From Aquificaceae bacterium (GTDB lineage Bacteria > Aquificota > Aquificia > Aquificales > Aquificaceae), in assembly GCA_025056375.1 (NCBI GenBank), contig JANWWH010000006.1, positions 1 to 44,132 of the forward strand: a stretch of 44,132 bases of DNA, read 5' to 3'. A program made the position numbers and the translations under genes. The stretch's first letter is position 1, and every line of letters starts with the position of its first letter. The notes under the pieces are model-generated. The model ran no database searches, was not told where the DNA came from, and worked only from the letters and a program-made list of their open reading frames with translations. This document shows positions 2,063 through 20,830 of this stretch, piece after piece.

Positions 2063-4793
2063 CTCTTACACTCCCATATTTTATCCTTGTAATTTTACCA
2101 CTCACTTCACGCGTGTCTGGCTTTGGCTCAACTTTTAATGTGCATTCAGATACTTCCAGCTCTACTTCGAGGGGCACGTGCGCGCTCAGATGCAGTGCGT
2201 ATCCATTCCTGCCTTTACTGAAATTAACCACCTTTCCATTAGAGCTCACAACTCTAAAAGGGGATGGTGTCTCGGAGAATACTACCCTGTAATCACCAGA
2301 TGGGTCAAGGCTTATATAAGTGGACGTCTTGTGATGTCTATAACCCACCACGCCTTTGCTTTTTAAAAGGTCAACGTGCACCTTTTTGTCCACTCTTAGC
2401 GTTCTCAAACTTCCACCGCCACGCACCACCAGCTCTCCTGTTTCCACATGTTCCATTAGAGCCATGTTCCTATACTCGAGCACTTTCTGGGCATATTCAG
2501 AAAGAAAGAGGGGGATAGTTTCTTGAGATAGAGACCAGTTGTAGACCTTCCTTAAAGCTTCCAAAGATGCCAGCTTTTGCCCTGAATACATGTGATAGTA
2601 TATGTTTATGGGCTTTATGCGGTAAGGGTTCTCCGTCATTCCAAAGGTATCAATAACCCTTACAAAACCGTAAAAGTCCGTCCAAAGGTTCGTGTAGATG
2701 TTTTCGTTAAGCATTGGTGCATAAATCTGGAAAAACTCCCCTCTGTTGACACCCATAGGACCTATAAACATCCTATAGGGATGCTTTCTGTTAATCCACG
2801 TGTATCCGCCGTTCACATTGTAGACCCCCGCCTCGTAGGCAAGCTTTAAAGTTTGCTCCGAAGGGGAGGCATCGCCCGACCATAGAAAAACCCTTACCCC
2901 TTTACCTTCTGGCGCAAGCCTTCTGTTGATATACTCAATAGAACCTTGTATCTCTCTCCTTGGGTCAAACTTGTAATCCTTGAGCGGAAGGTTGTATGCA
3001 ATAGGTGAGCTTAGCTTAGCTTCTGCTTCATTGTTTGTGAAGGCTTCTATCTCCTTCCAATTAAAGGGATGCGAGAAGGTGTGAGAGGCAACTTCTACAT
3101 TTTTAAGGGCAAATATAGACTTTGCCACACTCTCAAGTCTTTCGGAACGCTCTGGATAAAGACCATGGGGTGCTACCTCACCTTCTACGATAGATACAGT
3201 GTGAAGCACAGGATACTTTTTTATTATTTCATCTCTTATCACCTCTCCTATGTTTCTAGAAGGGTCAAAATCCGCATCTCCGAAGAAGGCATCTCCATCA
3301 ATGTGAACAAGAAGCATCCTTCTTCCACTCTCAGTGGTCACATCAGGTATGAGCTCGTAAGGTTCAAAAACCATGCTGAACAGCTCAACGGGGTCAAGGG
3401 TAAACAGGGTAAGCTCCCCGCGTTGAACCAGCAAGGCTCCGGGCTGAGCGTATCCCCCCCACTCAGTTACAGCTAAAGGATAAAACAGGGTATTTCCAGC
3501 CCTTAGCTTTAGATATGCCTTTGCCCTATCAGGAACAAGCATAGGGACATTCATCAAGAGGGGTTTAGCTTCAAGCTCTTTGAAGGAGCTCTTCTCAAGG
3601 GTATAGCTCTGGCCTGCCCTCAGCTGACCGAGCATTTTTATACCTAAGGACTTTAGGTGCCTTTCGTCCCTACTGGAGCTAAAGGCGTTCAAGAAGAACA
3701 CTTTTAGACCTTCTTCCTTCTTTTCTATGAGCCAGCGGTAGAGCTTCTCCTGTTCCCTTATTCCCCCAAAATCCGCAACTATCCCCGCGTATATATCTCC
3801 CATAAAGTAGTTTAGCCTGTTATCAGACAAGGCTTTTTCCGCTTCCATGAGAACGGGCACATAACCCAGGTATTCAATCCAGGGTTGTATCAGCCTGTTA
3901 AGGATGCTAAAGGATGGGTCTTTATATAGCTCACCGCTGTAAAGCAAAAGCACCCTTCTGGGCTTTAGCTTACTGTGTGAGGCTCCAAGGGTGCGAAGGT
4001 ATCTGTCAGAAACGTAAGGAATAAAGCCTAGCTTGCGTATATTTCTGACTGCCTCCCTCTGAAGTGTCCTGTCCTTGGGGTCTACGTAGTCTATCACTAC
4101 GACCTTGTAGCCTAACTCCTTAGCCCTTTTGAGCCTCTCCAGCAACCAATTACTTTCCTCTTTCTTCATAAGCTTGTAGCTTTTCTTTTCATCGTAGGAT
4201 ATGCCATAGAAAAGGCTCTCTGCTACTATAGCATCCGCGTAGCCCCTTAGCGCTTCCATAACCTCAAACCCTCTGTTTAGGAGGATAATTTTTTCAGGAT
4301 ATCTCTGTTTTAGGGTTTTTACGAGCTTTATAAGGTTTTCTCTTACTTGCTTTAAATCCTTCTCTTCCTTAAGAAAAAGTTGGTGACTGTCTAAAGTATC
4401 TAAAAAGAAGCCATCAAAATCCTCAAGTCGTGGAAAAACCTCGTAGAGCAAGAAGTTTACATACCCCTCTGCTCTCAAATCTGTCACAAAGGAATTCCAT
4501 ACCTTATTCTTTCCTAATAGCCACTCGCTTTTAACTTTCCTAAAATAATCTCTGTATTCTCCTATCTCTCCCACGCTTATATAAGCTATAAGTTTAGCCT
4601 TTCTGTTGCTTAGATAGAAGCTTTTCATAACTCTTTTTGTATGAGGGCTCTCAGGCTCAAGGACGAGCCAGTCAAAGGCATAGAGAGCTTCTTCTGGTAT
4701 AGGCTCGCCGTATATCATAAAACCGACGGACAACTCTTCAGCCCTTATCACCGTTAAGCTAAATATGCATAAAAGTGTAGTAATGAATATCAT
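2034..4793 (-). CDS. pelA: PelA-like bifunctional glycoside hydrolase / polysaccharide deacetylase
   Basis: At 919 residues it is close to Pseudomonas PelA (about 950). Residues 1-18 form a signal peptide. Residues about 20-265 form a TIM-barrel hydrolase domain of the GH166/TM1410 type, with acidic motifs SVGEIGEY (about 73-80), DGFFLDTLDS (about 127-136) and VAESLF (about 190-195). Residues about 275-470 resemble a Rossmann-like middle domain. Residues about 490-740 form a CE4-like deacetylase with HIDGDAF (497-503), SHTFSHPF (570-577) and WSGDASP. The C-terminus is beta-rich. In Pel systems PelA partly deacetylates the GalNAc-rich polymer in the periplasm and also cleaves it. The ATG is preceded by AAGGAGGT. 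It overlaps pelG upstream by 35 bases and the TPR gene downstream by 29. Confidence 0.85.
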   Translation of the reverse strand: MIFITTLLCIFSLTVIRAEELSVGFMIYGEPIPEEALYAFDWLVLEPESPHTKRVMKSFYLSNRKAKLIAYISVGEIGEYRDYFRKVKSEWLLGKNKVWNSFVTDLRAEGYVNFLLYEVFPRLEDFDGFFLDTLDSHQLFLKEEKDLKQVRENLIKLVKTLKQRYPEKIILLNRGFEVMEALRGYADAIVAESLFYGISYDEKKSYKLMKKEESNWLLERLKRAKELGYKVVVIDYVDPKDRTLQREAVRNIRKLGFIPYVSDRYLRTLGASHSKLKPRRVLLLYSGELYKDPSFSILNRLIQPWIEYLGYVPVLMEAEKALSDNRLNYFMGDIYAGIVADFGGIREQEKLYRWLIEKKEEGLKVFFLNAFSSSRDERHLKSLGIKMLGQLRAGQSYTLEKSSFKELEAKPLLMNVPMLVPDRAKAYLKLRAGNTLFYPLAVTEWGGYAQPGALLVQRGELTLFTLDPVELFSMVFEPYELIPDVTTESGRRMLLVHIDGDAFFGDADFDPSRNIGEVIRDEIIKKYPVLHTVSIVEGEVAPHGLYPERSERLESVAKSIFALKNVEVASHTFSHPFNWKEIEAFTNNEAEAKLSSPIAYNLPLKDYKFDPRREIQGSIEYINRRLAPEGKGVRVFLWSGDASPSEQTLKLAYEAGVYNVNGGYTWINRKHPYRMFIGPMGVNRGEFFQIYAPMLNENIYTNLWTDFYGFVRVIDTFGMTENPYRIKPINIYYHMYSGQKLASLEALRKVYNWSLSQETIPLFLSEYAQKVLEYRNMALMEHVETGELVVRGGGSLRTLRVDKKVHVDLLKSKGVVGYRHHKTSTYISLDPSGDYRVVFSETPSPFRVVSSNGKVVNFSKGRNGYALHLSAHVPLEVELEVSECTLKVEPKPDTREVSGKITRIKYGSVRDARLEINCK

Positions 4794-7634: not shown

Positions 7635-8652
7635 CGTTCACAATCCAGAATTCATATATATAGGCTAAATAGGGGTTCATAGAATATTTTAAGTCCCTTG
7701 CATATTTTGACAAAAGCTCTACTACCTGCCCGTACTTACCTTTTCTAAAGTATATCTCGGCGAGGTATGGTGCATATCTTGTCGGATGTAACCTGTTCAG
7801 CTCCACTGCACTAATGAGAAACTTCTCTGCGGAGGTAAGGTCTTTTTTAGCCATCTGAACCTTACTCATGAGTATCAGAAATTCCGCATCTTGCTTGACC
7901 TTCATGGCTTGTAGAAGGTAGTCCTCCGCCTTTTGAAGGGTAAGCTTTTCAAGCTCCTCATCAACAAGTTTGTGATACACAAGGTCGTAGTTGTTCTGGG
8001 CTAACTTGAATAGAACATCCGCCTTTTCCTCATCCGGCAAATTCTCTTTTAGCCTCTCGCTTAAAAGACTTATCCTTTCTTGTATTGACTTTTCAAGCCT
8101 GGTAAGAGAAGAAAATACGGAGAGCCTCAATTCATCATACTGGCTGCTCAAAATACCCGCCGCATTGTTAAGAAGCCTTGGATTTTTTATCTCAAGGATA
8201 AGCGTAGCCAAAAGGTCCACCTCTTTCCCCCTTAATCCCCCTGACTTTTGCAAAAGATAGAGGGGTGCCTCACCCATAGCCCTGCCTTTCAGAGAGACAC
8301 TGCTCGCAAGGAATTCACTTAAGGAGAAGGATTCTATTCTCGCACTAACTCTCTTCTTACGTGAAACTAACAGGTAAAGAAAAACCGACAGAAGCAAAAG
8401 ATATCCTGGAAAGAACATTAAAAAGCATATTGAGATGAGCAGGAAGGTTATCCTCTTTGCGTATCTTTTGTATCTCTTGAGAAGTAGAGGAAAAATCAGG
8501 GGAACCATTAGGAGACAGGCTATGAGGTGTGATAGGAGGAGAAGTATCAGCTGATAAAAACTCTGCAGGTAAAATAAATTGGCAACAGCGGCAGCTTCTG
8601 CGATGAGAGAGTAGAATAGGTCCTTTCTAAAATAAGTCAACTCTTTTATCAT
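7615..8652 (-). CDS. pelE: PelE-like membrane/TPR protein
   Basis: A 345-residue protein: hydrophobic segments within residues about 10-95 (FLLISICFLMFFPGYLLLLS is one), then a cytosolic helical region with TPR-like repeats (about 200-330; EKFLISAVELNRLHPTRYAP). The central stretch ELRLSVFSSLTRLEKSIQER resembles the conserved core of PelE. PelE helps assemble the Pel synthase in the inner membrane, next to PelD. It is the first gene of the operon. A TATAAT lies 20 bases before the ATG (8673-8678), and there is no clear ribosome-binding site. No pelD gene precedes it, whereas in described pel operons pelD and pelE are normally adjacent. Confidence 0.78.
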   Translation of the reverse strand: MIKELTYFRKDLFYSLIAEAAAVANLFYLQSFYQLILLLLSHLIACLLMVPLIFPLLLKRYKRYAKRITFLLISICFLMFFPGYLLLLSVFLYLLVSRKKRVSARIESFSLSEFLASSVSLKGRAMGEAPLYLLQKSGGLRGKEVDLLATLILEIKNPRLLNNAAGILSSQYDELRLSVFSSLTRLEKSIQERISLLSERLKENLPDEEKADVLFKLAQNNYDLVYHKLVDEELEKLTLQKAEDYLLQAMKVKQDAEFLILMSKVQMAKKDLTSAEKFLISAVELNRLHPTRYAPYLAEIYFRKGKYGQVVELLSKYARDLKYSMNPYLAYIYEFWIVNDAGSSK

Positions 8653-19218: not shown

Positions 19219-19246
19219 TGTTAGCATAATAGCAATTATATTAACA
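19219..19246. other. Candidate dif site (Xer recombination site)
   Basis: 28 bp with dif architecture: 11-bp arm TGTTAGCATAA, 6-bp centre TAGCAA, 11-bp arm TTATATTAACA. The arms are inverted repeats of each other at 9 of 11 positions. The layout matches E. coli dif, whose inner arm parts are also CATAA and TTAT. It lies about 710 bases before a Xer recombinase gene. In single-recombinase systems (XerS, XerH) the dif site can lie close to the recombinase gene. Alternative: an operator or promoter element of the HTH gene. Confidence 0.5.
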
Positions 19247-19278
19247 CCACTCCATAACCCTTCTTTTGTTGATATCAG

Positions 19279-19307
19279 TTGACATGTGACGTCATTTGAC
19301 TTATCAT
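19279..19307 (+). promoter_or_regulatory. Strong promoter of the HTH-xer-trmD-xfp-ackA run
   Basis: TTGACA (19279-19284, perfect), 17-base spacer, TATCAT (19302-19307). The spacer contains the palindrome TGACGTCA and a second TTGAC, so it could be a target for repression. A ribosome-binding GGAGG precedes the ATG at 19336. Confidence 0.7.
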
Positions 19308-19335
19308 AGTGTAAAGTTAGCTAATGGAGGTCGTC

Positions 19336-19956
19336 ATGAGCTATGTCAAGATGAAGGCATCCGAGTATGCCACCCTTACGGACCTTTCTCTGAACACGGT
19401 CAAGAACCGCATAAGGGCGGGTGTGTTAAAGGGGGGCAAGGAGGAGGATGGTATATGGTATGTGTATCTCACTCAAGAGGAGCTGGACTACATAAGGGGC
19501 GCAAGAGACTCCAAGGAGGAGAAGGAAAAAAACTTGCAGGCTAACCTCGAAAACCTCAAGTCCACTCTTGAGGGGAGCCTCATAGCTACCTACATGTCCG
19601 CCCTTATGCAAAAGGAACAGCAAAAAGAACAGCTCCTACACGAGCTCTCAAGTCTTTATACCCTTTTGGCAATAAGAGAAAAGGAGATGGAGTTCCTGCT
19701 CAGAGAATTGGAAAGGATAAAACAGCGATGCTCTGAGAAGGAGGAAGAAGAGAAAAGATTAAAGGAAAGCCTCTTGGAGAGCGAGGAGAAAATTAGAAAA
19801 CTTCAGGAGTCTCTCAGAGAAAAAGATTACCTTCTAAGCCAGAAGGAGCTCGAGCTCCAAAGGGTCGTCCTTGACAAGGATAAAGAACTCCTCAACAAGG
19901 AGATGGAAATCTCCGCTCTTCGTAGGGAACTGGAGAAAAGGAAGAGAGGAGAATAA
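19336..19956 (+). CDS. HTH plus coiled-coil DNA-binding protein (RacA/KfrA-like architecture)
   Basis: I chose the ATG at 19336 because GGAGG sits six bases before it; an ATG at 19324 lies upstream of that site. The 206 residues have an N-terminal winged-HTH-like domain of the MerR/excisionase type (about 1-55: MKASEYATLTDLSLNTVKNR, then a wing DGIWYVYLTQEEL) and an almost unbroken coiled coil (about 60-205: MEFLLRELERIKQRCSEKEE and similar heptads). This layout is seen in chromosome-anchoring RacA and plasmid KfrA-type proteins. It is joined to the recombinase gene (one base between stop and next ATG). A role in holding or condensing DNA near the dif-like site, or as regulator of the run, is inference. 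Confidence 0.72.
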   Translation: MSYVKMKASEYATLTDLSLNTVKNRIRAGVLKGGKEEDGIWYVYLTQEELDYIRGARDSKEEKEKNLQANLENLKSTLEGSLIATYMSALMQKEQQKEQLLHELSSLYTLLAIREKEMEFLLRELERIKQRCSEKEEEEKRLKESLLESEEKIRKLQESLREKDYLLSQKELELQRVVLDKDKELLNKEMEISALRRELEKRKRGE

Positions 19957-19957
19957 A

Positions 19958-20830
19958 ATGTTAACTATGGAAGAGCTCTTGGAACTCTGGGTAAAAAGCC
20001 TGAGTAAGACGAAGAGCCAGAGGACGGCTACTACCTACAGGATGTGCATCAGCAGTCTTCAGAGACATGCATCTGGAGAAAGTAGCCTTCTTGAGCTTGA
20101 ACCAAAAACATTATACTCGTATGTGGACGCCTCGAACCTGTCGGTTTCTTCACTGCTAACCCACCTCTCTGCCATAAAGCATTTTTACAAATTCGCCTTT
20201 AGGAGGGGTTGGCTGAGCAAAGAGCACTACTCCGAGCTGGAGGCAGTGATAGAGGAAATAAGAGAAGAGATTTCCACCACAAAGCCCCAAAGACCGCCGA
20301 AGGCACTCACTCTGGAAGAGCTTCGGAAGATTTTTGAGGCGGTGAGGAACACCAAGTATGAGCGCATATACAGTCTTTTTCTCTACAGCGGTATAAGGCT
20401 TTCTGAGTATACCCAGCTAAGGGGGGAATTCTTCTACAAAGACAAAAATGGCATATACTGGCTCAGGCTTCCTGCGGAGGTGACCAAAAGAAACAGAGAG
20501 AGGTTAGTGCCCATAATAGGTCCCTCAAGAGAAGAAACTTTAAACATAAACCAGAACCTCCAGCATTGGCTCGAGGACTACGAAAGGAACATACGGGTAA
20601 AGGCTGGCTCTCTTCAGGTTTTTACCAACAGGCTATCTCAGAGGATAAAGGTTCCCTTTTCTCTCCATAGCTTTAGGCACACTTACATAACCAATCTGGT
20701 CAACGCGGGCTTTCCTGCGGAGGTGGTCAAGGAGTTTGCAGGACACTCCAATGTGAAGACCACCATAGACATTTACTACCGCTTCAACCAAGAAAGGGCA
20801 AGAAGTTTGGTAGAGAGCTTTTTGGGATGA
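19958..20830 (+). CDS. xerA: Xer-type tyrosine recombinase
   Basis: 290 residues from the ATG at 19958 (AGGAG upstream). N-terminal core-binding domain (about 5-95) and C-terminal catalytic domain with the complete set: Arg in YSGIRLSE, Lys in the TKRNRERLVP hairpin, HSFRH (His-x-x-Arg), GHSN histidine and nucleophile Tyr in IDIYYRF. Length is that of XerC/XerD/XerA and no integrase-type extra domain is present, so chromosome-dimer resolution at dif is more likely than phage integration. Only one Xer is visible here. It overlaps trmD by four bases. The symbol follows single-Xer (XerA-like) usage and is tentative. Confidence 0.85.
   Translation: MLTMEELLELWVKSLSKTKSQRTATTYRMCISSLQRHASGESSLLELEPKTLYSYVDASNLSVSSLLTHLSAIKHFYKFAFRRGWLSKEHYSELEAVIEEIREEISTTKPQRPPKALTLEELRKIFEAVRNTKYERIYSLFLYSGIRLSEYTQLRGEFFYKDKNGIYWLRLPAEVTKRNRERLVPIIGPSREETLNINQNLQHWLEDYERNIRVKAGSLQVFTNRLSQRIKVPFSLHSFRHTYITNLVNAGFPAEVVKEFAGHSNVKTTIDIYYRFNQERARSLVESFLG

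Follow-up and report, generated by a model that had tools for sequence, protein, structure and literature searches.

The locus lies in a contig of an Aquificaceae bacterium, analyzed as one stretch of 44,132 nucleotides (the window). From left to right, it comprises glnE, which reads away from the site, a 28-mer (TGTTAGCATAATAGCAATTATATTAACA), a promoter-like region, a gene for a coiled-coil protein, a tyrosine recombinase gene, and a trmD-type gene from 20827 (Table 1). The first-pass annotation had proposed the 28-mer as a candidate dif site, and its 11-6-11 geometry, its length of 28 bp and the inversion of the arms at 9 of 11 positions are all borne out by the letters of the window. Judged from the window alone, this symmetry is at chance level: 11 positions have arms inverted at 9 or more of 11 positions around a 6-bp spacer (mean of 7.4 and range of 3–10 in 20 shuffled versions). 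The arms match those of E. coli dif at 16 of 22 positions, but another place, 19404, does equally well. The strong promoter said to follow the site corresponds to −35 and −10 boxes read by eye only. At the right end, the start of the trmD-type ORF overlaps the xer stop by 4 nt (20827–20830), so the coiled-coil gene, xer and trmD may share one transcript here.

Table 1. Coordinates and basis of the features assigned at the putative dif locus (window positions).
Feature	Position	Strand	Details	Basis
Putative dif core	19219..19246	+	11-6-11 imperfect palindrome, TGTTAGCATAA-TAGCAA-TTATATTAACA	sequence, single copy, family comparison
Putative operator array	19270..19336		TGAYA/TRTCA-type half-sites (TGACG/CGTCA variants included)	motif offsets and composite pattern
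Probable promoter	19279..19307	+	TTGACA 19279-19284, 17-bp spacer, TATCAT 19302-19307	read by eye
Predicted winged-helix (MerR/RacA/Xis-like) DNA-binding protein	19336..19956	+	one helix of ~160 residues (coiled coil)	ORF, homologues, predicted structure
Xer-type tyrosine recombinase	19958..20830	+	290 aa	domain matches, catalytic residues, homologues

In the draft genome to which the window belongs (94.5% complete), a genome-wide search returned a single copy of the 28-mer and no other within 3 mismatches. Relatives with the same gene pair have kept it: upstream of the helix-turn-helix (HTH)/coiled-coil gene, the site is present at 0–2 mismatches to the consensus in 27/27 loci for which upstream DNA exists (in the remaining locus, L020, the sequence stops at the gene). 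Mean identity over the 28 columns is 0.92, whereas the 40 bp on either side average 0.40 and 0.45 (26 loci, leaving out L020 and the near copy L029). The conserved block is thus exactly 28 bp, the length that two recombinase arms plus a spacer would occupy. A pattern search across 136 genomes of the class matched 64 at up to 3 mismatches. Within the family Aquificaceae, 43 of 64 genomes have the site at up to 2 mismatches and 51 at up to 3, while the pattern search found none at this threshold in the remaining 13; the pattern read backwards matched 1/64. A single copy at up to 2 mismatches was found in 41 of the 43 (G031 and G042 have a second one, at 2). Outside the family, all site matches among those listed had 3 mismatches. 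Eight genomes of the family have only 3-mismatch matches; those in G008 and G011 are supported by an adjoining ribbon-helix-helix (RHH) gene, described below, and those in G007, G015, G021, G032, G060, and G061 may be due to chance or to plasmids. G026 and G051 (99% complete) have Xer, but neither a site at up to 3 mismatches nor the HTH gene was found in them. The 28-mer is thus a family trait, precise to 28 bp. It persists beside an HTH partner, an RHH partner, or neither (in two g2 genomes, L031 and L032, no partner was seen), which argues that it is neither an operator of either partner nor one of xer.

The first gene after the site encodes 206 aa from the ATG at 19336 or 210 aa from that at 19324, the former being the more likely start because GGAGG lies at 19326–19330. 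Homologues of the protein were found in 28 of the 136 genomes, all in the same family and spread over 7 genera. AlphaFold2 predicted a strand-HTH-wing fold at residues 7–50 followed by one helix at residues 51–209 (mean pLDDT 91, pTM 0.40), and the ORF and predicted structure together confirm the layout of an HTH with a long coiled coil. Its description as RacA/KfrA-like can be kept for RacA, with a MerR-type winged HTH leading into a coiled coil in the predicted structure and RacA bound to DNA (5i44) as the top Foldseek match (probability 0.99, weak E-value of 0.039); KfrA was discarded as an identity, as none of the three Pfam families reported for the window protein at E-values up to 5 is KfrA. 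The other Foldseek matches were CadR, BldC, other MerR-type proteins, and the Pukovnik phage Xis, all with E > 0.03. In one locus (L024, from G054), the gene contains a single in-frame TAG, reflecting either error or decay.

The distance between site and gene varies little, the gene match starting 76–112 bp after the site (coordinate difference) in 27/27 HTH loci. The recombinase gene is a less regular neighbor. It adjoins the HTH gene in 18/28 loci, was not seen in 9 within the flank retrieved (1.5 kb for eight, 280 bp for L023), and could not be placed in L008, where the contig ends; in the complete genomes G030, G033, G052, and G057 it lies far from the site. On the other side, the left flank of dif is unalignable and the neighboring genes differ among the loci whose ORFs were inspected. 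The first-pass annotation had envisaged a self-contained module of dif, coiled-coil protein and Xer; the linkage of the coiled-coil gene stands, but Xer as a fixed member does not. Xer is dispensable to the linkage, and the constant neighbor is the coiled-coil gene with its operator array, a feature that the first-pass annotation had not noted.

Homologues of the recombinase suggest a start at 19967, and the protein is the only Phage_integrase match in its genome. Profile matches occur in 60 of the 64 family genomes (58 with E < 1e-40), several of which have weaker second integrase matches besides Xer. The NCBIfam cut-offs were not reached for XerD (78.7 of 329.6 bits), XerC (78.5 of 335.15), archaeal XerA (73.2 of 220), or XerS (38.8 of 267). 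One PDB sequence matched at 1e-10, namely 4a8e, named XerC-like, which we take to be the XerA of Pyrococcus. The protein has a SAM-like N-terminal domain and a catalytic domain, with R147, K177, H237, R240, H263, and Y273/Y274 invariant in 10 aligned members, corresponding to the Xer pattern R-K-H-R-[H/W]-Y (PMC5357621). The complete tyrosine recombinase reported initially was therefore confirmed by both domains and catalytic residues.

Between the site and the first codons of the HTH gene, short half-sites are strongly enriched. Across 27 arrays there are 156 TGAYA/TRTCA half-sites, a count that includes near copies and palindromes, compared to a mean of 32.5 and a maximum of 45 in shuffled sequence. 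The commonest same-strand spacing in these arrays is 10 bp. The first half-site begins 11–24 bp after the site (17–24 in 25/27), and offsets within the genus of the window, e.g., 23, 33, 43, 63, 74, 85, and 97, follow steps of 10–11 bp or multiples thereof. In the window itself, half-sites start at 19270, 19273, 19280, 19287, 19290, 19302, and 19332 (offsets of 23, 26, 33, 40, 43, 55, and 85 after the site), one of them coinciding with the −35 box, and a composite pattern spans 19270–19294. No direct repeats of 7 bp or more were found in the window array, its half-sites being short and degenerate. Single half-sites are too short for judging dispersed sites, and a wider spread of them beyond dif may exist. 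The composite array, sought in 14 whole genomes of the genus, was found beside dif in 9 (in 6 of them exactly), elsewhere in 1, and nowhere in 4; its matches lie nearly all beside dif, which marks the composite array as a local feature of dif. This pattern fails to detect the arrays of G039, G040, G042, and G045, and when read backwards as a control it matches G042 once. In sampled DNA of four genomes, the densest 100-bp cluster of half-sites was the array in three (8 vs. 5 in G036, 6 vs. 3 in G052, 8 vs. 5 in G033) and was not the array in G029. With the stricter TTGAYA/TRTCAA, the array came top only in G052, tied in G029 and G033, and was not top in G036. As a distant target of the array protein, xer was rejected: 0–2 half-sites occur in the 230 bp around the xer start in 11 loci where xer lies apart, of which only L190, L192, and L193 (1, 0, and 1 half-sites) come from genomes with the HTH protein.

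In the genus g3, no HTH gene was found, and the site adjoins a gene for an RHH protein of ~100 aa with a C-terminal coiled coil (RHH_1 E 1.4e-7). The closest NCBIfam model is the cell-cycle regulator aCcr1, at 36.1 of 60 bits. MatP likewise combines an RHH domain with a coiled coil. Among the 15 best loci of this gene (at least 58 bits), the site is present on the fetched DNA in 14, 12 from g3 and 2 from g11, and absent in L208. The g3 loci have an operator-like motif of their own, GTAWTAC, at +9 and again at +74/75 after dif in 12/12; the 2 g11 loci have an exact copy only at the second position, +73. The g3 operator at +9 lies about 95–120 bp before the RHH ATG. The RHH and winged-helix partners are unrelated proteins in the same position at dif. 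In the genus g4, an RHH-type gene whose 3′ end adjoins the site looks broken by eye in G025 and G027 (L048 1492–1857 and L049 1539–1779), and G027 also has a weak RHH match (E 9.7e-4); the HTH partner is present in two further genomes of g4, G028 and G029. A tree built from 30 Xer proteins, out of the 60 genomes with a match, places RHH genomes among HTH genomes; given good support for only 8/27 inner branches and the midpoint rooting, no direction of partner change is claimed.

Skew was analyzed to place the site on the chromosome, using five complete genomes (G029, G033, G036, G052, and G057), each sampled in 20 stretches of 20 kb, and 11 more stretches in G033, with third-position skew averaged over gene strands, GC and TA combined, and 1000 permutations. 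A two-arc pattern was obtained for G033 (1/1000 permutations), with the plus-to-minus switch at +78 to +156 kb from the site, and for G057 (4/1000), with the switch at +68 to +137 kb. TA alone places the switch of G033 at −78 to 0 kb, and GC alone that of G057 at −68 to 0 kb (152/1000, not significant); in finer steps, the GC switch of G033 falls at ~450–470 kb, compared to 361 kb for the site. Broad agreement came from nine stretches of G030, which is related to G033 and hence not independent of it. No skew signal was detected in G029, G036, or G052 (678, 582, and 437 of 1000), one of which is the only genome sampled from the genus of the window. As polarity markers, dnaA, which lies elsewhere, and rRNA were uninformative, with only one of two rRNA copies in G033 fitting. 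Leading strands are usually G- and T-rich. If this applies here, the site is terminus-proximal, within 5–10% of the genome. Compared with the initial expectation of a dif at the skew switch, the site lies only near a switch, in two genera and with polarity assumed, and the one genome sampled from its own genus gave no usable skew. In archaea, too, dif often lies away from the antipode (PMC2958812). Taken with the family conservation, the single copy and the single Xer of its own genome, this rough terminus position supports the candidate well, and the 28-mer very probably serves a divergent Xer as its dif site.

The FtsK γ domain was found in none of the 136 genomes by domain search, which detected it in 8 of 14 control genomes. 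An XerCD/dif/FtsK system was rejected on this ground and on the presence of one integrase gene in the genome of the window, as opposed to two Xers. The FtsK_SpoIIIE motor domain (PF01580) matched in 48 of the 64 family genomes, 38 of them over the Pfam cut-off. Of four weak matches that were opened, one was a type II/IV secretion ATPase (G033) and three were fusions of a PLD nuclease with a HerA ATPase (G000, G029, and G057), with lengths of 617–641 aa (L262 404–2326, L263 660–2558, L265 325–2175). This PLD-HerA fusion is a candidate DNA translocase in a lineage without FtsK γ; HerA has been suggested as a functional analogue of FtsK in archaea (PMC2958812). One strong match was opened (G023:C67:3023–3499) and proved to be an FtsK/SpoIIIE-like ATPase ORF of 382 aa, open at the end of a 3.6-kb contig.

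The explanation that we favor, and consider fairly probable, is that the 28-mer is the chromosomal dif of Aquificaceae, used by Xer without FtsK γ and forming part of a compound site, in which operators and a partner complex control Xer or position the terminus. Site conservation, linkage, half-site enrichment, the predicted fold, and the lack of an FtsK γ match were computed; from these we infer binding, autoregulation, and a role in recombination or positioning. In the compound site, the dif core would be followed by the operator array and this in turn by the gene whose product reads the operators. This winged-helix/coiled-coil protein would most likely bind the helically spaced half-sites cooperatively, as BldC, Xis, and RdfS do, would repress its own promoter, and would hold a nucleoprotein complex hard against dif. 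This complex could control Xer synapsis and direction, in the manner of PepA/ArgR at cer or of recombination directionality factors at att sites; alternatively, the coiled coil could link dif with the site of division or with the sister dif, as ter is tethered by MatP and ZapT. A bolder version, which we put forward tentatively and as less than probable, holds that the phylum does without FtsK γ and likens the arrangement in this family to a "dif kinetochore," in which a self-encoded DNA-binding coiled-coil protein on an array abutting dif would pair or anchor sister difs and license the single Xer, the protein itself being interchangeable. Under this version, the occurrence of two unrelated coiled-coil proteins in the same seat, each with its own operators, would mean that evolution keeps the architecture rather than the protein.

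Autoregulation alone is the main rival of a dif complex. An ordinary dif would then lie beside an unrelated autoregulated DNA-binding gene, the array would be only the operator of that gene, and the linkage would persist because dif sits in the promoter region. The overlap of the window array with the promoter, the RBS, and the first codons of the HTH gene is readily explained in this way, as is the proximity of the operators to the promoter; RdfS, a winged-HTH protein, binds its own promoter (PMC11963761), and the dif-to-ATG length in g3 is itself nearly constant (103–107 bp in 10/11 loci measured). However, the coiled-coil gene stays with dif although the left flank is unalignable, the neighbors differ, and xer is elsewhere in at least four complete genomes, and the second, unrelated coiled-coil protein sits at the same location and has an operator 9 bp from dif, well upstream of its own ATG. 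We regard autoregulation by itself as somewhat unlikely. That the 28-mer is instead an operator or an att site, for example one at which an element bearing the gene integrates, is improbable: an exact copy on a viral contig (L267) indicates that elements may use the 28-mer, and the skew position of the site is only approximate, but about one copy exists per family genome whatever the flanking genes, even where xer is far away, and the genome of the window has no second copy within 3 mismatches. The least probable reading is a MatP/matS-like organizer with many sites through the terminus, for which a coiled-coil DNA-binding protein does adjoin dif, a MerR-type ter-binding protein, ZapT, is known in Caulobacter (PMC7188993), and by half-site count the sampled 20-kb stretch with the site ranks first of 20 in G036 and third of 31 in G033, but in G029 and G052, with 20 stretches each, it ranks 7th and 16th and the composite array lies away from dif in only 1 of the 14 whole genomes.

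Among the known systems closest to the favored compound-site reading is XerA/dif of archaea, which likewise has a single Xer, a 28-bp dif with 11-6-11 geometry, and no FtsK homologue (Cortez, 2010; PMC2958812). In Thermococcales, dif lies apart from xerA, and conserved sequences flanking archaeal dif were considered to be perhaps bound by a protein partner (PMC2958812). No such partner was named there, whereas here the flanks are operator arrays with the likely partner gene adjoining; the Xer described here is also far under the archaeal XerA cut-off given above. XerS/difSL and XerH/difH are likewise systems of one recombinase. The XerS gene adjoins its own site, compared to 18/28 loci here, and XerS depends on FtsK (PMC2958812), unlike the present system, in which no FtsK γ was found; difSL is an atypical site of 31 bp (PMC5357621), as opposed to 28 bp, and the XerS model, too, scores the present Xer far below its cut-off. 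For XerCD at cer and psi, the accessory proteins PepA, ArgR, and ArcA act on core-flanking sequences to set the direction of recombination (PMC5357621), as is proposed here; those systems differ in having plasmid sites, two recombinases, and accessory proteins unrelated to the present partners.

The winged-helix domain of the partner is shared with RacA, BldC, Xis, and RdfS. RacA sites are origin-proximal and serve polar anchoring, whereas the array described here is at dif, and to our knowledge none of the four proteins has been tied to dif. BldC binds direct repeats head to tail, BldC and RdfS multimerize with about one subunit per 9–10 bp, and RdfS and Xis assist tyrosine recombinases (PMC5859096; PMC11963761). 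BldC has no coiled coil, unlike the partner here, and the site bound by RacA is GC-rich and is occupied by a symmetric dimer. The SNJ2 cofactors Orf2 and Orf3 (PMC8371274) differ in being viral, in being two separate proteins, and in not acting at dif. MatP/matS and ZapT, the latter annotated as MerR-type, offer a proposed likeness as DNA-binding proteins of the ter region that couple the terminus to the divisome, but their sites are dispersed (matS over 800 kb, 10 ZapT peaks; PMC7188993), in contrast to the one array at dif here.

No paper on dif in Aquificota was present among the matches listed from the open-licence part of PMC, although the site list of Kono 2011 may include Aquifex. The novelty lies in how closely dif is coupled to an operator array and a gene for a DNA-binding coiled-coil protein, in a lineage in which no FtsK γ was found, and in a second kind of such protein at the same spot. 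This bears on how dimers are resolved and recombination is kept one-way without FtsK, in archaea and apparently in Aquificota, and the flanking operators and candidate proteins named here are a concrete candidate for the partner foreseen by Cortez 2010 (PMC2958812). Two unrelated proteins in the same position would, if true, represent clear convergence on a dif-anchored complex. The family has cultured members (Thermocrinis, Hydrogenobaculum), so the idea is directly testable.

A viral contig and a possible plasmid carry versions of the site. The viral contig L267 (IMG/VR, 11.7 kb, 25% GC) is a fragment of phage DNA encoding a terminase, a portal protein, and a prohead protease, and its copy, at 8092–8119, is exact and fully palindromic; integration of this virus at dif in an Xer-dependent, IMEX-like manner is possible. 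The 4518-bp contig G007:C20 has a 28-mer-like sequence with 3 mismatches at 1–28 and again at 4368–4395, 4367 bp on, and an RHH gene at 3540–3794; it may represent a small circular plasmid whose resolution site is dif-like, the overlap of its ends having been compared over the 28-mer only.
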